Source of the DNA: Acidobacteriota bacterium
GTDB lineage: Bacteria; Acidobacteriota; Vicinamibacteria; Vicinamibacterales; UBA2999
Assembly (NCBI GenBank): GCA_947482665.1
Contig: CANKJK010000004.1
Span: 124,001 to 188,000, forward strand
Length of the DNA stretch: 64,000 nt
Reading direction: 5' to 3'
In this document: piece by piece, positions 1,422-59,395 of the stretch
How the letters are laid out: each line of letters opens with the position of its first letter
Numbering within the stretch: position 1 is the first letter of the stretch
The notes under the pieces: model-generated
The model's input: the letters and a program-made list of their open reading frames with translations, nothing else
Database searches by the model: none
Told to the model about the DNA's origin: nothing
Program-made: the position numbers and the translations under genes

Positions 1422-2018
1422 ATGAAGCAGTTCGTATTGACGGCCCTGGCCGTGATGGCCCTCGCAGGCGGCATGGCGGCTCAAGGGCAGAAGGTGCCGA
1501 GCCCGGCTGGCACATCGGCTACGCAGGTTGGGCCGAAGTTCAGCAAGTGGATTGAGATCAGCTACGGGCGTCCCATCCTGCGCGGTCGCGCGGACATCTT
1601 TGGCGCCGGTGCAAACTACGGCAAGGGCCTGCTCGCGGGCGCGCCGATCTGGCGCGCGGGCGCAAACGTGTCCACGCGCCTCAATACGGAAGTGCCGCTG
1701 GTCATCGGCGGCAAGACCGTACCGGCCGGCGAGTACAGCGTGTTTATCGAGATCAAGGGCGAGAAGGACTGGACGTTCGTGCTCTCGAGCTACAGCGCAC
1801 TGGTCAACCCGAAGGAGCCGAAGCCGGATCACCTGTGGGGCGCCTACAACTACAAGACCGACAAGGACGTCGTGCGCGCACCGATGACCGTGTCGGCGTC
1901 GCCGATGCTCGTCGATCAGCTCACCTGGGGTTTCACCGACGTGACCGAGCAGGCTGGCCACCTGCAGCTCTCCTGGGCGAAGGCCGTCGCGTCGATCGCC
2001 TTCACCGTCGGGAATTAG
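1422..2018 (+). CDS. DUF2911 domain-containing exported protein
   Basis: A 198-residue protein with a signal peptide (MKQFVLTALAVMALAGGMAAQG). The ATG at 1422 has a strong AGGAGG Shine-Dalgarno at 1410-1415. The body matches the DUF2911 pattern: ISYGRPILRGR, IFG, YGKGLL, IWRAGAN, TEVPLVIGGKTVPAGEYSVF and DWTFVLS. The family is frequent in Acidobacteriota and Bacteroidota, is predicted to be periplasmic, and has no known function. The gene ends 17 nt inside the convergent apbE gene. A weak -10-like TAAGAT lies at 1395-1400. Confidence 0.85.
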   Translation: MKQFVLTALAVMALAGGMAAQGQKVPSPAGTSATQVGPKFSKWIEISYGRPILRGRADIFGAGANYGKGLLAGAPIWRAGANVSTRLNTEVPLVIGGKTVPAGEYSVFIEIKGEKDWTFVLSSYSALVNPKEPKPDHLWGAYNYKTDKDVVRAPMTVSASPMLVDQLTWGFTDVTEQAGHLQLSWAKAVASIAFTVGN

Positions 2019-3036
2019 GCGCCCGCCGGAAGCGCGTCTTCAACGCTTCCGACATCACCAGTTCCACACGACCTGATGTTCCCCGGTAGGCGATGACCGC
2101 CATCGCGCCGGGGAACGATTCCACCAGCGCCAGTCCCTTTTCGGGCCCCAGCAGATACGCAGGCTTGCTCAACGCATCGGCGAGCGTCGCATCCGGCGAG
2201 ATGATCGTCACGCTGAGCGCGGCATTGCTGGGCGCCATCGTGCGCGGGTCGATGAGATGCCCGTAGGTCTTGCCGCCTGACACGAAATAGTTGTGGTAGC
2301 CGCCCGAGGTGGAGACGCCTCCGCCATCGACCTGCAGCGAGCCGAGCAGTGCCGTCGGGGTCTCCGGGTCCTCGATGCCCACCTCCCACCGGGCCTTGTT
2401 CAAGGGCGTGCCGACGAGATACTGGTTGCCGCCGGCGTCCACAAGCCCTGAGTAGCCGCGCCGCTGCAACACGCGTCCGGCCACTTCGACTGCGAAGCCC
2501 TTGGCGATGCCGCCGAGGTCGAGCTCCACGCCCTTCCGTGTGAAGCGCACTGTGTGCGTGGCCTCGTCGAGGACGACGTTTTCGTAGCCGACGATGGCCC
2601 GGACCTGCTGCAGTTCGGTGGCGCTGGGCACGTGCGGCCGTTTGTCGTGAAAGCCCCAGAGCCGGACGAGCGGTCCCACCGTGATGTCGAACGCGCCGCC
2701 GCTGGCGCGGCTGACCCGCCGCGCCGCGGTCAGCACGCTCCACATCGGGTCGCTGACCTTCACGGGACGCAGTGCCGCGTCGGTATTGATGCGCGTCAGC
2801 TCGCTGTCCGGCTTGTAGTTGCTCATCAGCCGGTCGACCTCGACCATGGCGGCAAACGCCTCGTCGATCGCGGCGGCCCGTGAGGCGGCCACGCCGCCGG
2901 TGGCCTCAACCGTGATGGTGGTGCCCATGAGAACCCGGCGCACCGTCGTGGTGAGCGGGCCCTCGGCGCGCGGGACGGCCGACGCTAGCAGGAGCGCCGC
3001 CGCGAGGATGCCGGAGCACGTAAGGCTCCGGCGCAT
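2002..3036 (-). CDS. apbE: FAD:protein FMN transferase (ApbE family)
   Basis: A 344-residue exported enzyme that links FMN covalently to Ser or Thr of target proteins on the outer face of the membrane, using FAD and Mg2+. Visible family signatures are LMGTTITVEATG near the N-terminus, GGAFDITVGPLVRLWGF, VELDLGGIAKGFAVE, VDAGGNQYLVG, HLIDPRTMAP and DATLADALSKPAYLLG. The N-terminus (MRRSLTCSGILAAALLLASAVPRAEG) is a signal peptide. The gene is last in a compact minus-strand cassette and abuts the DUF3570 gene at 3036, so that protein is the obvious candidate target. The gene tail overlaps the convergent DUF2911 gene. Confidence 0.93.
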   Translation of the reverse strand: MRRSLTCSGILAAALLLASAVPRAEGPLTTTVRRVLMGTTITVEATGGVAASRAAAIDEAFAAMVEVDRLMSNYKPDSELTRINTDAALRPVKVSDPMWSVLTAARRVSRASGGAFDITVGPLVRLWGFHDKRPHVPSATELQQVRAIVGYENVVLDEATHTVRFTRKGVELDLGGIAKGFAVEVAGRVLQRRGYSGLVDAGGNQYLVGTPLNKARWEVGIEDPETPTALLGSLQVDGGGVSTSGGYHNYFVSGGKTYGHLIDPRTMAPSNAALSVTIISPDATLADALSKPAYLLGPEKGLALVESFPGAMAVIAYRGTSGRVELVMSEALKTRFRRAPNSRR

Positions 3037-4130
3037 CAGTGCTTGAGGGGCACGCGGAGGGCGGCCGTGACGGTTGCGGCCTGGAACTTCGTCGTGTTCC
3101 GGTAGTACTCGTACTGGAGCGTGAGGCTGGTGCCCTGGCGGAAGGCCATCAGCCCCTGCTTCGGCGTGAAGTTCAGTCGGCCCGTGTAGAGATCCGCGTC
3201 AAACGGGAAGATGCGGAAGTCCGCGGTGAAGAACTCCGGCTGGCCCGTGTAGACGGGTCGGTAGAAGGAGGCGCCGGTCTGTTCGTGCCGGCGATACACC
3301 CCGGCGATGGTGAGCTGCGGACTCACCTCGCGCGAGAGTCCGGCCGACCACGTGTTGGCGCGCACCTGCCAGTCGTCCTGGTAGCGGCGGAAGTCGGCTT
3401 CGAGATACATCCGCCCGGGCAGTGCCTGGCGGAGCTTCGCTGTGATCGAGTGCCGCAGGCGGAGCTCGGGGTGGTTGCCGAGCATGCGAACGCCGTCGAC
3501 GTTGGCGCGCAGGAACACGTTGTTCTGGAAGCCTGTGATCCGGCTGACCTCGTAGCCCAGTTGCACGGCCGTGCCCTTCGTCAGGGTCTGGGTGACGGTG
3601 CCGAACGCCGAGTGGGCGTACTGCCGGGCGACATCCTCGCTCGGATGGAGCACCGGCTGGTTGAGGGAGAAGGCGTAGCCACCTGCGATCGTCGTGTTCG
3701 CCTGATTGAGCGTCCGCGAGATCGAGGTCGAGCCCGTCGTGGCGGTGTAGAACTGCTCGCGGCTGAATTCGCCGCCGACCGAGACCTTCGTGTCGCCGTA
3801 CTTCCGGAAGAGCGAGGCGTTCACATAGGCGCGGGCATTGTAGGCGCCGTCCGGGTGGCAGCGGATGCAGGAATCCGACGCCGCCGAGATGGCGTCCACG
3901 CCGAAGCTGGCCCGGAGGCCGGTGCGCGTGGTGAAGTCGCGGCTCAGCTCGCCCGAGGGACTGAGCACGGTCACGCCGCGCGAATCCGTGAAGGCGTGCA
4001 TCGAGATGCCGTAGGACTCCTCGGCGGGCTGCTGCGCCGTGACCGGCCGCCCCACCACGAGCGCCACACCCATACCTGCCGCGGCAACCGCCGCGGCGAT
4101 GAGCAGGCCGCTCCGCTTACTTGCAGCCAC
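3036..4130 (-). CDS. DUF3570 family exported protein with a CXXCH motif and an ApbE-like acceptor motif
   Basis: About 364 residues. I prefer the GTG at 4130: it gives a clean signal peptide ending RPVTAQQ and overlaps the end of the DUF4266 gene, whereas an upstream ATG at 4196 would overlap that gene by 80 nt. The mature N-terminus has a DUF3570-like region (SRGVTVLSPSGELSRDF, LRASFGVDAIS), and the rest is many amphipathic strands typical of an outer-membrane barrel. DAISAAS (3876-3896) resembles the ApbE flavinylation consensus D-x-x-S/T-G/A-A-S/T, and three residues later comes CIRCH (3855-3869), a c-type heme site. The neighbours are ApbE, DUF4266, a TlpA-like thioredoxin and a CXXCH lipoprotein. 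Function is unknown; a redox role is inferred. Confidence 0.75.
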   Translation of the reverse strand: MAASKRSGLLIAAAVAAAGMGVALVVGRPVTAQQPAEESYGISMHAFTDSRGVTVLSPSGELSRDFTTRTGLRASFGVDAISAASDSCIRCHPDGAYNARAYVNASLFRKYGDTKVSVGGEFSREQFYTATTGSTSISRTLNQANTTIAGGYAFSLNQPVLHPSEDVARQYAHSAFGTVTQTLTKGTAVQLGYEVSRITGFQNNVFLRANVDGVRMLGNHPELRLRHSITAKLRQALPGRMYLEADFRRYQDDWQVRANTWSAGLSREVSPQLTIAGVYRRHEQTGASFYRPVYTGQPEFFTADFRIFPFDADLYTGRLNFTPKQGLMAFRQGTSLTLQYEYYRNTTKFQAATVTAALRVPLKH

Positions 4131-4344
4131 AGCCACCGCCCTGCAGGCTGTTGCCGCCGGCCGCGCCTTCGCGGGACTCCTGCCAGTGGCTGGCAAATGC
4201 CGCGAGTTCGCCGTCCGGGCTGAACTGCATGCACGGGCTCGCCAGGCGGCCGCGCTGCCATGGCTGTACCGTGGCGCAGGCAGTGAGGAGCGTGCTCACA
4301 GAGAGGACAGCCGCCAGCACGGCCAGGCGGACGAGTCGGGGCAT
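4117..4344 (-). CDS. DUF4266 small lipoprotein with C-terminal Cys-Gly-Cys tail
   Basis: A 75-residue lipoprotein. MPRLVRLAVLAAVLSVSTLLTAC ends in a lipobox (LTAC), giving a mature peptide of about 53 residues. Conserved-looking features are VQPWQRGRLASPCMQF, a SREGAAGG stretch and the extreme C-terminus GGGCGCK, which match my memory of DUF4266. The start is the ATG at 4344 overlapping the thioredoxin stop (TGATG); a GTG at 4347 is also possible. The end overlaps the proposed start of the DUF3570 gene. DUF4266 and DUF3570 genes are usually found together, so they may form a complex. The paired cysteines could bind metal, receive a modification or be reduced by the neighbouring thioredoxin. 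Confidence 0.82.
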   Translation of the reverse strand: MPRLVRLAVLAAVLSVSTLLTACATVQPWQRGRLASPCMQFSPDGELAAFASHWQESREGAAGGNSLQGGGCGCK

Positions 4345-4871
4345 CACTTCTCCTCCAGGAGTTGGACGATCTCACGGCGGTAGTCGGCCAGGACCTTGTC
4401 GTTGAAACCCTCGTGCGCGAAGCGGGTGACGCCCTTGCGATCGATGAGGTAGGAGGTGGGCATGCCCTTGAGCTTGAAGCCGGTTGGCGCCACGCCCTTC
4501 GGGTCGAAGAGCACGCGCACCGAGTGCCCGCGGCCTTCGAGAAACGTATTGGCGGCCTTGCGGTCTTCGTCCACATTGATGGCGACCACTTCGAGCCCGT
4601 GCTCCCGGTGCTCGCGGTAGAGCGCGTCGTAGGCGGGGAACGCGACCTTGCAGGGCACGCACCAGCTGGCCCAGATATCCACGAGCACGACCTTGCCCTT
4701 GAGCGATTCCAGGGAGACCGGCGTGCCCGCGGCGTCAGGCAGCGTGATGGACGGTGTGGTTTTCGGCACCAGGGCATCAGCGGCCAGAGCCGCGCGGCCC
4801 GGCGCGCCGAGCGCACCGACGACCAGGAGGGCACCCAAGAGCGGCGCAGAGAGACGAACGGGAATCATCAT
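4344..4871 (-). CDS. TlpA-like periplasmic thioredoxin
   Basis: A 175-residue thiol:disulfide oxidoreductase with an N-terminal signal or anchor segment (residues about 5-30) and a thioredoxin fold of the AhpC/TSA-Redoxin (TlpA/ResA) type. The active site is WCVPC (Trp70, Cys71, Cys74), preceded by GKVVLVDIWAS. The cis-Pro loop is KGMPTSYLID. ATG codons at 4871 and 4868 both overlap the upstream stop codon. In this cassette it probably keeps the cysteines of the CXXCH proteins or the DUF4266 tail reduced before cofactor attachment. That role is inferred from position and from the CcmG/ResA precedent. Confidence 0.88.
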   Translation of the reverse strand: MMIPVRLSAPLLGALLVVGALGAPGRAALAADALVPKTTPSITLPDAAGTPVSLESLKGKVVLVDIWASWCVPCKVAFPAYDALYREHREHGLEVVAINVDEDRKAANTFLEGRGHSVRVLFDPKGVAPTGFKLKGMPTSYLIDRKGVTRFAHEGFNDKVLADYRREIVQLLEEK

Positions 4872-5404
4872 CGGGTTTGCGCCGCTGCGTTGTTCACGAT
4901 CCAGGTGCGTACGAGGTCTGCCTTGCCCTGCGCATTGCCGCTCCAGTAGCGATACATGCTGCCGCCGCGCTGCGTGAAGCGGATGAGGACGCTGTTGGTG
5001 TTGCCCGCCGCCACTGCGCGCATGACCTGTGCGTAAGTGGTCATTGAGTAGTTGCCGTAGGGCCGGCTGCTGGAATGGCAGCGGGTGCAGTCGGCGTCGA
5101 AGATGGGTTTCAGGTCCTGTTGATAGGCCACGGTGATGGTGGCCGGTGCCGGAGGCGTTGTCGTGGTCGGGCTCCCCGCGGACCCGGTAGCCGGAGTCGT
5201 GGCTGGTGTGGTGCTGGCCGTGGTGCGGCCGGACCGATCATCACCGCTTCCGGTCGAGGTTGAGGTCGACCCCGAGGCGGAGATCGCACTTGGCGCCGTG
5301 ATGGAACTCACCGTGTCCGTGGGAGCCTGCTGCGTGATGCAGCCGATCGCAAGCACGGCCGAGGCGGTGATGCCGAGAGTTGCGAGAGTGAGACGGGTGT
5401 ACAC
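4868..5404 (-). CDS. c-type cytochrome-like lipoprotein (single CXXCH)
   Basis: About 178 residues. The first plausible start is the GTG at 5404, which gives VYTRLTLATLGITASAVLAIGC with a lipobox (AIGC). The frame stays open to 5485, but upstream starts would put extra residues before the signal sequence. A Ser/Thr/Pro-rich linker of about 70 residues follows, then a small cytochrome domain: VAYQQDLKPIFDADCTRCHSS carries the heme motif, and Met residues downstream (YSMTTYAQVM, GGSMYRY) could be axial ligands. It is the first gene of the redox cassette and overlaps the thioredoxin gene by 4 nt. The linker suggests a surface-tethered electron carrier. Confidence 0.78.
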   Translation of the reverse strand: MYTRLTLATLGITASAVLAIGCITQQAPTDTVSSITAPSAISASGSTSTSTGSGDDRSGRTTASTTPATTPATGSAGSPTTTTPPAPATITVAYQQDLKPIFDADCTRCHSSSRPYGNYSMTTYAQVMRAVAAGNTNSVLIRFTQRGGSMYRYWSGNAQGKADLVRTWIVNNAAAQTR

Positions 5405-5505
5405 GATAAGGCCTGACCTTGAACCTAGCAGGGATTGTGCCATGCAGGACAGGTCTCGGACTTGGAAGGAAAACCTTCGAACCACGTCTCAGCCATTCAC
5501 CGGGC

Positions 5506-10238: not shown

Positions 10239-10357
10239 GCGCTTCGTTCTCTCAGGTCAATCACCTCGCTGCGGGACGTGCCATTGATGAGGCATCGTGG
10301 CCGCACCATGGGAATGTGGCTGTGCGATCGGACACAGCCGAGCCCACGACGCGTCGC

Positions 10358-10363
10358 TATAGT
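10358..10363 (+). promoter_or_regulatory. -10 element TATAGT upstream of crystallin-like gene
   Basis: TATAGT lies 21 nt before the ATG at 10385, with GAGGCGAGG between them as a possible Shine-Dalgarno. Confidence 0.4.
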
Positions 10364-10384
10364 CCGAGGCGAGGTCTTATCCAC

Positions 10385-11068
10385 ATGTCTACCACGCATC
10401 GCACCATTACCATTCTTGCTCTGTGTCTGCTGAGTGCGTTCGGCACGCGTGCCGGAGCTGCCGGCCGCGATGATGACCAGTGGGGTTCGAGGGAGATGCC
10501 GCGCTCCGGGGTCTGCCTGTTCAAGGATCCGAACTTCCACGGCGACTACTTCTGCATTGAGTCCGGCGACAGTCGCCGGAAGCTGCCCTACGACATGCGG
10601 GACAAGGTGTCCTCGATGCGTATGCTCGGCAACGTGAACGTGCAGGTCTTCACGGATGAACGATTCAAGGGTGCGTCGGGTCACTTCCTCACCGACGTCC
10701 GCAACCTGAAGCACCAGGGCTGGAACGACAAGATCTCGTCCGTCCGTGTCACCGCGACGGCGACCGCCTGGGAGAGTGGCCGCTTCCCCGGCTGGGGCCA
10801 CGCCAGCCTGCCCGAGCAGGGGGCCTGCTTCTATCGCGATCCTGGTTTCAAGGGAGACTACTTCTGCGTGGCGCGTGGAGGCAGCTATACGGAAGTGCCC
10901 GAAGGCTTCAATGACAAGATCTCGTCGATCCGACTCATCCGCGCAGGTGGCGTGATCGTGTTCGGCGACCGCGATTTTGAGGGCGCGTCTGCCCCCGTCA
11001 CCTCGGACGTTACCGACATGCGGCATGGTCCATGGAACGACAAGATTTCATCCATCAGGGTGTTCTAG
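10385..11068 (+). CDS. Exported two-domain beta/gamma-crystallin (peptidase inhibitor I36-like) protein
   Basis: A 227-residue protein with a signal peptide (MSTTHRTITILALCLLSAFG, then TRAGAAG). The mature part holds two similar halves, each with a Greek-key beginning (GVCLFKDPNFHGDYFCIE; GACFYRDPGFKGDYFCVA) and an ending with the D/N-K-I/V-S-S Ca2+-binding-type signature (DKVSSMRM, NDKISSVRV, NDKISSIRL, NDKISSIRV). It therefore carries four crystallin motifs, two per domain. One Cys pair in each domain (GVCLF/YFCIE, GACFY/YFCVA) probably forms a disulfide. Microbial relatives bind Ca2+ or inhibit proteases. The next gene starts very close downstream. Confidence 0.85.
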   Translation: MSTTHRTITILALCLLSAFGTRAGAAGRDDDQWGSREMPRSGVCLFKDPNFHGDYFCIESGDSRRKLPYDMRDKVSSMRMLGNVNVQVFTDERFKGASGHFLTDVRNLKHQGWNDKISSVRVTATATAWESGRFPGWGHASLPEQGACFYRDPGFKGDYFCVARGGSYTEVPEGFNDKISSIRLIRAGGVIVFGDRDFEGASAPVTSDVTDMRHGPWNDKISSIRVF

Positions 11069-55915: not shown

Positions 55916-57090
55916 CAGCTCCGGCCGATCTCCCGTCGCTCAGCGCGGAGGAGATCAAGCGGTACAGCCGTCACCTGATCATGCCCGAGATGGGCATCGA
56001 CGGGCAGAAGCGGCTGAAGGCCGGCAGCGTCCTCTGCGTCGGTGCCGGCGGCCTCGGGTCGCCCGCGGCGATGTATCTGGCGGCGGCGGGCGTGGGCCGC
56101 ATCGGCGTCGTGGACTTCGACGTCGTCGACTACAGCAACCTCCAGCGGCAGATCATTCACGGCACCAAGGATGTGGGCCGCTCGAAGCTGGCGTCCGCGA
56201 AGGATCGACTCCTCGACATCAACCCGCACATCCAGGTCGACACCTACGAGGAAGCGCTGTCGTCGTCCAATGCGATGCGCCTCTTCGAACCGTACGACGT
56301 CATCCTCGACGGCACGGACAACTTTCCGACGCGGTATCTCACCAACGATGCCTGCGTGCTCCTCGGCAAGCCCAACGCTTACGGCAGCATCTTCCGCTTC
56401 GAGGGGCAGGCCTCGGTCTTCGCCACCAAGGGCGGACCATGCTATCGGTGCCTCTATCCCGAGCCGCCGCCTCCAGGGCTCGTGCCAAGCTGCGCCGAGG
56501 GCGGCGTGCTGGGTGTACTGCCGGGCATCATCGGGGTGATCCAGGCGACGGAAACCATCAAGCTGCTCACCGGTATCGGCGAGCCGCTCATCGGCCGCTT
56601 CCTGATCTATGACGCCCTGCGGATGAAGTTCCGTGAGCTGAAGCTGAAGCGCGACCCGGAGTGCCCGGTCTGCGGTGACCACCCGACCGTGACGAAGCTC
56701 ATCGACTACGACGAATTCTGTGGGATCCGTCCCGACGTGACGGCGGAGGCAGCAGCTGTGGCCGCAGGCAATCAGTGGGAGATTTCGGCGGTCGAACTCA
56801 AGGCCCGCCTCGACAAGGGCGACAAGCTCTTCATCCTCGACGTGCGCGAGCCCAACGAGTACCAGATCTGCAAGATCGAGGGCTCGACGCTGATTCCGCT
56901 CGGCGAGGTGCCGCGGCGCTACCAGGAACTGCCGAAGGACGTGGAGATCATCTGCCAGTGCAAGATGGGCGGGCGCAGCCAGAAGGCGCTCGACTTCCTG
57001 CGCACGGTGGGCTTCACGAACATGAAGAACCTGAAGGGCGGCATCCTCGACTGGATCGACAAGGTCGACCCGAGCCAGCCGAAGTACTAG
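55912..57090 (+). CDS. moeZ: MoeZ/MoeB-type adenylyltransferase-sulfurtransferase (ThiF plus rhodanese)
   Basis: A 392-residue E1-like enzyme that adenylates the carrier's C-terminal Gly and transfers sulfur. The N-terminal ThiF domain (about 10-275) shows the nucleotide motif GAGGLGSPAAMYLAAAGVG, DFDVVDYSNLQRQIIH, a zinc site with the pairs CYRC and CPVC, and PSCAEGGVLGVLPGIIG. The C-terminal rhodanese (about 285-392) has the active Cys in ICQCKMGGRSQKALD. The GTG at 55912 overlaps the carrier stop (GTGA); a GTG at 55909 is equally in frame. It is the last gene of the operon. Confidence 0.93.
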   Translation: MTAPADLPSLSAEEIKRYSRHLIMPEMGIDGQKRLKAGSVLCVGAGGLGSPAAMYLAAAGVGRIGVVDFDVVDYSNLQRQIIHGTKDVGRSKLASAKDRLLDINPHIQVDTYEEALSSSNAMRLFEPYDVILDGTDNFPTRYLTNDACVLLGKPNAYGSIFRFEGQASVFATKGGPCYRCLYPEPPPPGLVPSCAEGGVLGVLPGIIGVIQATETIKLLTGIGEPLIGRFLIYDALRMKFRELKLKRDPECPVCGDHPTVTKLIDYDEFCGIRPDVTAEAAAVAAGNQWEISAVELKARLDKGDKLFILDVREPNEYQICKIEGSTLIPLGEVPRRYQELPKDVEIICQCKMGGRSQKALDFLRTVGFTNMKNLKGGILDWIDKVDPSQPKY

Positions 57091-57182
57091 CGCTTCTCAT
57101 ATCGCGGGATTCCAGCGGCTGCTCCGGACTCACTCCGGGGCGGCCGTTTCACTGTACGGCGGGCTGAGGTACCGGAATACCG

Positions 57183-57228
57183 GGATTGGAACGGCCGCTC
57201 GCATTGCTCACAATCCGCTAGCGGCCGT
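57183..57228 (+). ncRNA. Candidate structured leader with pseudoknot topology
   Basis: In the 157-nt gap after moeZ, GGATTG (57183-57188) can pair with CAATCC (57211-57216), and ACGGCCGCT (57191-57199) with AGCGGCCGT (57220-57228). The order of arms is that of an H-type pseudoknot. CAATCC could instead pair with ATTG (203-206) in a nested hairpin. A GGAGGAG Shine-Dalgarno follows 5 nt later at 57234-57240. No known riboswitch was recognised. Confidence 0.35.
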
Positions 57229-57247
57229 GCCGTGGAGGAGCTCACAC

Positions 57248-59395
57248 ATGAGATGGAATACGTTGCTGAAGGGTGCCGGACTGCTGCTGCTCTCCACGTC
57301 CGTGCTGGGAACGCTGTACGCCCGTCAGGACGCAGCCGTCGCGATCGACAGCGATGACCTGGGGGGCGTGGTCACGAGCGCCAAGGGGCCGGAGGCCGGC
57401 GTCTGGGTGATCGCCGAAACCCACGACCTGCCCACGCGCTTCATCCGCATCGTCGTGACGGATGACCGCGGGCGCTATGTCGTGCCTGATCTGCCCAAGG
57501 CCAGCTATGACGTCTGGGTGCGCGGCTACGGGCTGGTGGATTCGCCGCGGGTCAAGGGCGCGCCGGGGCAGAAGCTCAACCTGACCGCGATCGTGGCGCC
57601 GAACGCCCAGGCGGCAGCGGCCTACTACCCGGCGAACTACTGGGCGTCGTTGCTCAAGATTCCGGCGGAGTCCGAGTTCAAGGGTGGGGCGGAATCCAGT
57701 GGGCTCACGGTTGACGAGCTCCGCGTGTCGCCACCTGCCCGGAACCAGAAGGAGTTCATGGGCATTCTGACCACCAACGGGTGCGTGACGTGCCACCAGT
57801 TGGGGACGAAGACCACGCGTGAGCTGCCGCGCGGCGGTGGACCGTTCAGCGACACCAGGCAGGCGTGGGACACGCGGGTGCAGTTCGGGCAGAGCGGCGC
57901 GTTCATGACCAGCCAGTTCTCGCAGCTGCACTCACGTCCACGAGCGCTCGCCATGTTCTCCGACTGGACGGAACGGATCCAGAAAGGCGAGGTGCCACCG
58001 CAGCCGCCACGGCCGTCTGGCGTCGAACGCAACATCGTGATGACGTCGTGGGCATGGGGCGGCCCTGGCGAGTTCGTGCACGACGAAGCCTCGACCGATG
58101 AGCGCCATCCCACGATCAATGCGAACGGCCCGCTATACGGCACGATGGAGTTCAGCGGCGACACGCTGATCCTCGACCCGGTCACCAACACGGCCTCGCG
58201 CATGGAGCTTCAGCTGATCGATCCGAATAACAAGCCGCCGCTGGCGTGGAACCGCTCGGCCCTGAAGCCGTCGCCGTACTGGGGCGAGGAGATCTTCTGG
58301 AACAGCCGGACCATCCCGCACAATCCGATGCTGGACGAGAAGGGCCGCGTGTGGTTTACGGCAGCCATCCGTGGGCCGCAGAACCCCGCGTGGTGCGACG
58401 AGCTGCCCTCGGCCAAGTACTCGAAGCTCGCCCGGTCGAGTCGGCAACTCACGGTCTACGACCCGAAGACCAAGAAGATCACGCCGATCGATACGTGCTT
58501 TGGCACGCACCACATCGAGATCGCCTTCGACAAGGACAGCACGATCTGGGTGAACAGCGGTGGGTACTTCAACATCCGGGTGTGGGACGAGACGGGCGAC
58601 ATCAAGAAGGCCCAGGGCTGGGTGCCGTTCATTGTCGATACCAACGGCAACGGAAAGCAGGATGCCTACGTTGGCGTGGACGCTCCAGTCGACCCGTCGA
58701 AGGACAAGATGGTCAAGGGCGGGGGATACGACGTATCGGCCAGCCCCGCCGACAATTCGATCTGGTTCGCCGAGTCGGGAACGCCGGGACGCCTCTATCG
58801 CCTTGCGCCGGGTGCGAATCCTCCGATGACGGCCCTCACCGAGGTCTACGAGATCACCGACAAGGACGGTGCGCATACAGTGCGCGGCGGCCCTGAGCTC
58901 GACAAGAACGGCGTGGCCTGGATGGGGCTCGGCAGTGGCCACATGGCCAGCTTTGATCGTCGCAAGTGCAAGGTGCTGAACGGGCCCACGGCGGCAACCG
59001 GGACGCATTGCCCCGAGGGCTGGACGGTGTACCGGATGCCTGGCCCGCGGTTCCAGGGGACGGATGGCTGGGCCGACGCGCACTATCTCTCGTGGACGGA
59101 TCCGTTCAATACGTCTGGTCTTGGCGAGAACACCCCGTTCACGACCGGCAGCAACTCCGATTCGCTCATCGCGATGCAGCCCGGCGGCAAGTTCGTGAAC
59201 TTCCGCGTGCCGTATCCCATGGGCTTCCTGCCGAAGGGAATGGATGGTCGTATCGACGATCCCAAAGGCGGGTGGAAGGGCCGCGGCATCTGGTCGGTCT
59301 ATGGCGGCCAGGTGATGTGGCACCAGGAAGGCGGCAAGGGCGAGACCTCGAAGGTGGTGAAGTTCCAGGTGCGGCCGACACCGCTGGCGAAGTAG
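57248..59395 (+). CDS. Exported CXXCH protein with carboxypeptidase-regulatory and propeller domains
   Basis: A 715-residue secreted protein with a signal peptide (NTLLKGAGLLLLSTSVLGTLYARQ). A CarboxypepD_reg-like domain covers about residues 35-105 (GGVVTSAKGPEAGVWVIAETH, YVVPDLPKASYDVWVRGYG). Next comes a c-type heme-like motif, CVTCHQLG at about 180, and then a long section with virginiamycin-B-lyase-like propeller repeats (DEKGRVWFTAAIRGPQNP, FDKDSTIWVNSGGYFNI, SPADNSIWFAESGTPGRLYRL). The GTG/ATG choice is clear: the ATG at 57248 has GGAGGAG. The architecture recurs in Acidobacteriota; a quinone- or PQQ-linked lyase or oxidase role is only a guess. Confidence 0.8.
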   Translation: MRWNTLLKGAGLLLLSTSVLGTLYARQDAAVAIDSDDLGGVVTSAKGPEAGVWVIAETHDLPTRFIRIVVTDDRGRYVVPDLPKASYDVWVRGYGLVDSPRVKGAPGQKLNLTAIVAPNAQAAAAYYPANYWASLLKIPAESEFKGGAESSGLTVDELRVSPPARNQKEFMGILTTNGCVTCHQLGTKTTRELPRGGGPFSDTRQAWDTRVQFGQSGAFMTSQFSQLHSRPRALAMFSDWTERIQKGEVPPQPPRPSGVERNIVMTSWAWGGPGEFVHDEASTDERHPTINANGPLYGTMEFSGDTLILDPVTNTASRMELQLIDPNNKPPLAWNRSALKPSPYWGEEIFWNSRTIPHNPMLDEKGRVWFTAAIRGPQNPAWCDELPSAKYSKLARSSRQLTVYDPKTKKITPIDTCFGTHHIEIAFDKDSTIWVNSGGYFNIRVWDETGDIKKAQGWVPFIVDTNGNGKQDAYVGVDAPVDPSKDKMVKGGGYDVSASPADNSIWFAESGTPGRLYRLAPGANPPMTALTEVYEITDKDGAHTVRGGPELDKNGVAWMGLGSGHMASFDRRKCKVLNGPTAATGTHCPEGWTVYRMPGPRFQGTDGWADAHYLSWTDPFNTSGLGENTPFTTGSNSDSLIAMQPGGKFVNFRVPYPMGFLPKGMDGRIDDPKGGWKGRGIWSVYGGQVMWHQEGGKGETSKVVKFQVRPTPLAK

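Follow-up and report, generated by a model that had tools for sequence, protein, structure and literature searches.

Can a covalently bound flavin and a c-type heme occupy one short stretch of a single protein? We met this question at a five-gene cassette in the window (the whole 64-kb stretch of DNA that was analysed), where a DUF3570 protein carries a putative FMN attachment motif followed closely by CxxCH. An earlier note on this DNA had proposed that FMN and heme would sit side by side here if both sites are used.

Previous work demonstrated experimentally that the DUF3570 protein of Chlorobium luteolum is flavinylated by its ApbE, and that this flavinylation is abolished only when both of two motifs are changed (Meheust et al., 2021; PMC8238504). 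The same study described a DUF3570-DUF4266-thioredoxin-ApbE cassette, sometimes with DsbD; from evidence on separate domains or separate genes, it proposed that flavinylated proteins and cytochromes are interchangeable electron carriers outside the cytosol. The motif that ApbE modifies reads D-x-x-[S/T]-G-A-[S/T] and receives FMN at its final position, and a Gly-to-Ala change in the motif reduced flavinylation of one substrate that was tested (PMC12052999). Within the collection of papers searched, DUF3570 or DUF4266 is mentioned in PMC8238504 alone, and ApbE occurs together with CXXCH in one paper, on methanotrophic archaea, which names ApbE once.

A predicted flavin site and a predicted heme site in one DUF3570 protein

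The DUF3570 gene occupies 3036-4136 on the minus strand; its likely start is a GTG at 4136 or 4130, overlapping the 3' end of the DUF4266 gene, and the ORF ends at 3036. The product belongs to the DUF3570 family, as judged by its match to the PF12094 profile (E value 1.9e-29; 103 bits against a curated cut-off of 25). Translation of the minus strand at 3855-3896, inside this protein, gave DAISAASDSCIRCH, which together with the profile match confirmed the DAISAAS-DS-CIRCH segment described by the earlier note. DAISAAS (3876-3896, minus strand; motif 1) follows the ApbE rule (PMC12052999) with Ala in the Gly position, and its predicted FMN acceptor is the Ser encoded at 3876-3878. A two-flavin DUF3570 protein would have a second flavin motif after motif 1; the window protein has CIRCH (3855-3869, minus strand) at that place instead. 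The features expected of a c-type cytochrome are present as well: CxxCH, predicted export through a signal-peptide-like N-terminus upstream of CIRCH, and cytochrome c assembly genes in the genome, which encodes three such proteins (judged by size, one CcmF-like, one CcmC-like and one more).

When the mature protein was shuffled 200,000 times, CxxCH appeared 31 times and motif 1 appeared 2,682 times, and the two never appeared six or fewer residues apart. The stronger argument that the pair is not due to chance is its conservation in 14 genomes. Only three stop-to-stop frames of more than 80 codons contained CxxCH in the whole window, and two of them belong to the cassette. An isolated CVTCH was seen in a plus-strand frame at 57035-59392; it is probably not a heme site, since the ORF at 57227-59395 weakly matches CarboxypepD_reg. 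The window also encodes a beta/gamma-crystallin-like protein (PF00030, PF03995) at 10316-11068 on the plus strand.

Some alternating strands in the sequence make an outer-membrane beta-barrel fold plausible for DUF3570. A structure prediction from two sequences, the window protein and its homologue L014, had a mean pLDDT of 28 and was discarded, and a PDB search returned only two matches with E values of about 0.4, neither of them convincing.

The heme type forms a single clade in Vicinamibacteria

We searched for PF12094 in 59 relatives, 396 genomes of the phylum and 193 of the class (all centre genomes of the homologue search belong to Acidobacteriota). Motif 1 was present in 42/42 of the DUF3570 proteins that were read. 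CxxCH right after motif 1, which defines what we call the heme type, occurred in 14 genomes, each from the class Vicinamibacteria; in that class it accounts for 14 of the 17 DUF3570 proteins above the cut-off; none was found in the rest of the sampled Acidobacteriota. The heme-type proteins of these genomes showed 49-68% identity to the window protein and shared the pattern DSC-x-RCH immediately after motif 1. In a tree with 27 ordinary members they formed a single clade (support 100/100). Long branches meet there, which leaves the position of this clade in the tree less secure than its unity. The motif pair, on whose conservation among cassette homologues the earlier note had made its proposal depend, is thus kept in 14 genomes of one clade. 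A contig scan with patterns specific to the window protein matched L014 alone. A tblastn search of plasmids with the window protein gave no match, and one with an ordinary DUF3570 protein matched two Hymenobacter plasmids only; no DUF3570 was found in viral contigs.

Ordinary DUF3570 proteins differ at the place of the heme motif. In 21 of the 27 ordinary members of the tree, motif 1 is followed by another S-A-S or G-A-S motif, usually at a distance of 7 to 13 residues; the remaining six had the first motif only by the pattern used, with L022 borderline. The earlier note had correctly placed another S-A-S stretch here in ordinary members, but it did not recognise this stretch as the second ApbE flavin site (PMC8238504). 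Because the stretch replaced by CxxCH is itself an ApbE flavin site, we consider it fairly probable that in the heme type a c-type heme site has taken over from the second covalent FMN site, giving a predicted FMN-heme pair through which electrons would pass between flavin or thiol carriers and a cytochrome. The side-by-side arrangement of FMN and heme is hence supported by the sequences, with the correction that the heme motif replaces a second flavin site and was not added beside a single flavin.

Two further variants were noticed among the relatives. The DUF3570 proteins of L015-L019 keep motif 1 and have TTPSG or SPSG-like stretches where a second flavin motif would be expected; these may bear one flavin only. 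In those of L035 and L036 (genomes G375 and G229), the two flavin motifs are separated by an insert of 40-50 residues rich in His and Asp (HDHDHD...DDDD), which might bind metal next to the flavins.

Residues of both predicted sites are conserved

We aligned the 14 heme-type proteins and numbered the residues from the mature window protein (3039-4034, minus strand). The invariant residues include His13, Phe15, Asp17, Arg19, Asp47, Ala48, Ser53, Asp54, Ser55, Cys56, Arg58, Cys59, His60, His130 and Pro131. The mature heme-type proteins have exactly two cysteines, both inside CxxCH (13/13), and ordinary mature members have zero or one. In a mixed alignment of 20 proteins, His13, CxxCH and His130 were restricted to the heme type, so that members outside the heme clade lack the motif and have other residues in place of both histidines. 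His13 (3996-3998, minus strand), in the context H-x-F-x-D-[S/T]-R, and His130 (3645-3647, minus strand), in the context N-x-P-x-[L/V]-H-P, are therefore two candidate distal heme ligands.

If CxxCH binds heme, motif 1 could be a relic, with ApbE serving another substrate or none. The conservation of motif 1 bears directly on this explanation. Asp47 and Ser53, with which the ApbE motif begins and ends, do not vary in either kind of protein in the mixed alignment, as a retained flavin site would predict; position 50 is only Ser or Thr among the aligned DUF3570 proteins, the alternation that the ApbE rule demands; and one heme-type protein, L041, carries the canonical TGAS form (DAITGAS-DS-CARCH). 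On the other side, most heme-type members carry Ala or Ser instead of the motif's Gly, which we count against the FMN-heme pair, and a heme three residues away could be a steric problem that hinders ApbE, or the reverse. The distribution of ApbE, described below, has a part on either side. Taken together, we regard the relic explanation as unlikely.

The same proximity, with the first Cys only three residues past the acceptor Ser, raises the further alternative that the two attachments are mutually exclusive, a single molecule having either FMN or heme. Both motifs have been retained together across the clade at about 50% sequence identity, and we give this alternative very little weight.

The cassette contains an ApbE and an added cytochrome

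The cassette is compact and lies on the minus strand in the order cyt1, thioredoxin, DUF4266, DUF3570 and ApbE. The four-gene set of DUF3570, DUF4266, thioredoxin and ApbE is complete in the window and also in most relatives. The ApbE (2002-3036) is an FAD:protein FMN transferase with a signal peptide (PF02424, E value 4.2e-82) that aligned with the solved FMN transferase 7esa. Alignment with solved FMN transferases indicated that its STSG, YGHLIDPRT and ADALS active-site segments are kept; the roles of the catalytic Ser, His and Asp of these segments were assigned in PMC12052999. The genome encodes a second ApbE (L100; G000:C3:105467-106312). DsbD is absent from this cluster, and the only DsbD_TM match of the genome is on another contig (C3:230398).

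ApbE was found in 12/14 heme-type cassettes, which, with the active site kept in the window copy, argues against motif 1 being a relic. The idea that every heme-type cassette has an ApbE was rejected. In G411 the contig stops at DUF3570, and the assembly contains no ApbE. In G039 (L056) both motifs are kept, a protein kinase gene follows DUF4266 where ApbE would be, and no ApbE was found in the assembly, which is 97% complete; its cyt1 carries an in-frame TAG. This genome may represent decay or loss of the cassette, or an incomplete assembly. A protein that retains motif 1 without a detectable ApbE fits the relic explanation and weakens the dependence of the heme type on ApbE.

The thioredoxin (4344-4871) is TlpA/ResA-like and periplasmic, with a WCVPC motif (Redoxin PF08534, E value 3.7e-20; the TlpA/ResA models were below the cut-off). 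The DUF4266 protein (4117-4347; PF14086, E value 2.8e-18) is a lipoprotein ending in GGGCGCK, which includes a CxC. The fifth gene, cyt1 (4868-5485), encodes a small lipoprotein with a LAIGC lipobox, CTRCH and an invariant Met (GSMYRYW); an invariant CxxCH with an invariant Met is as expected of a monoheme cytochrome c.

We compared 14 heme-type loci, including that of the window, with 28 other loci. cyt1 was present in 14/14 heme-type cassettes and in 0/28 of the others, whereas ApbE and thioredoxin occurred in both kinds and DUF4266 in most. The only genes widely common to the heme-type loci were the five of the cassette. One of these cyt1 copies, that of G039, is the one with the stop codon. 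Gene order is altered in L056 and L064, and cyt1 is retained in both. L064 (genome G482) is a rearranged heme-type cassette in which DUF3570 has shifted upstream and cyt1 occurs in two copies. Since the heme type is one clade, the 14 loci are not independent, and the linkage of the cassette partly reflects shared ancestry.

Exclusivity of cyt1 to the cassette was rejected, as about ten other genomes encode relatives, either on their own or next to multiheme cytochromes. Four of them (L112, L115, L107 and L114) have no DUF3570 gene nearby and are encoded close to multiheme cytochromes that contain 11 or 5 CxxCH motifs. CxxCH motifs in the thioredoxins of L071-L073 (WCGPCH, WCAPCH) were rejected as heme sites; they are the thioredoxin active site.

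The thiol carriers in the cassette suggest another use for the CxxC of the heme-type protein, namely a disulfide, redox-active or structural, on which TlpA and the CxC of DUF4266 would act, with no heme. The two cysteines, the only ones in the protein, do have thioredoxin-like spacing. Yet ordinary cassettes share the thiol carriers, and DUF3570 there has no CxxC. The invariance of His60, the two further histidines that accompany CxxC, the monoheme cytochrome present every time and the cytochrome c assembly genes of the genome all speak against this use, and we judge the disulfide explanation quite improbable.

A predicted FMN-heme pair linking thiol carriers to a cytochrome

For the FMN-heme pair we propose the following mechanism. 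ApbE would attach FMN to Ser53 of DAISAAS, and heme would be joined to Cys56 and Cys59 by the cytochrome c maturation machinery of the cell; His60 would be its proximal ligand, and the distal one would likely be His13 or His130. Because three residues can hold the Ca atoms no more than about 10 A apart, electrons could pass directly between FMN and heme. The FMN would act as a converter between two-electron and one-electron steps toward the thiol carriers of the cassette (TlpA and the DUF4266 CxC). Between the heme and the lipoprotein cytochrome cyt1, electrons would be exchanged one at a time. The flow is probably toward cyt1, since the invariant Met of cyt1 suggests a higher potential; this is the weakest step, based on typical potentials only. 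We infer from these sequences that one molecule would carry both FMN (on Ser53) and heme (on Cys56/Cys59), and likewise which histidine is the distal ligand, how the partners are ordered and which way electrons flow. The complete picture, one envelope protein with a predicted ApbE-FMN and c-heme three residues apart, which would have arisen when a heme naturally took the equivalent position of a flavin and which with the recruited cyt1 would gate the passage between thiol/flavin carriers, moving two electrons, and a cytochrome chain moving one, is put forward tentatively, at slightly less than an even chance.

Relation to known systems

Cooperation of a flavin and heme c in one periplasmic protein is seen in flavocytochromes c such as Shewanella FccA. 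FccA has no ApbE motif, and its large catalytic domain, which adjoins a tetraheme domain, binds FAD without a covalent link. If the proposed pair is real, we know of no covalent flavin that lies closer to a c-heme. The multi-flavinylated RnfG of Christensenellales with a multiheme domain is also predicted to have ApbE-FMN and c-hemes on one chain (PMC8238504); its cofactors are in separate domains, whereas both attachment sites of the heme-type DUF3570 lie within 14 residues. A further close counterpart is the described DUF3570 cassette (PMC8238504), alike in family, motif 1 and the partners ApbE, DUF4266 and thioredoxin; the heme type differs in having CxxCH for the second flavin motif and an added monoheme cytochrome lipoprotein.

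The exchange seems to have occurred within one protein and at one site, in a cassette that otherwise stayed intact and gained a cytochrome partner. The two-flavin and flavin-heme members of this one family make the interchangeability of flavins and cytochromes directly testable, and the heme-type DUF3570 offers a clue to the role of DUF3570 cassettes.
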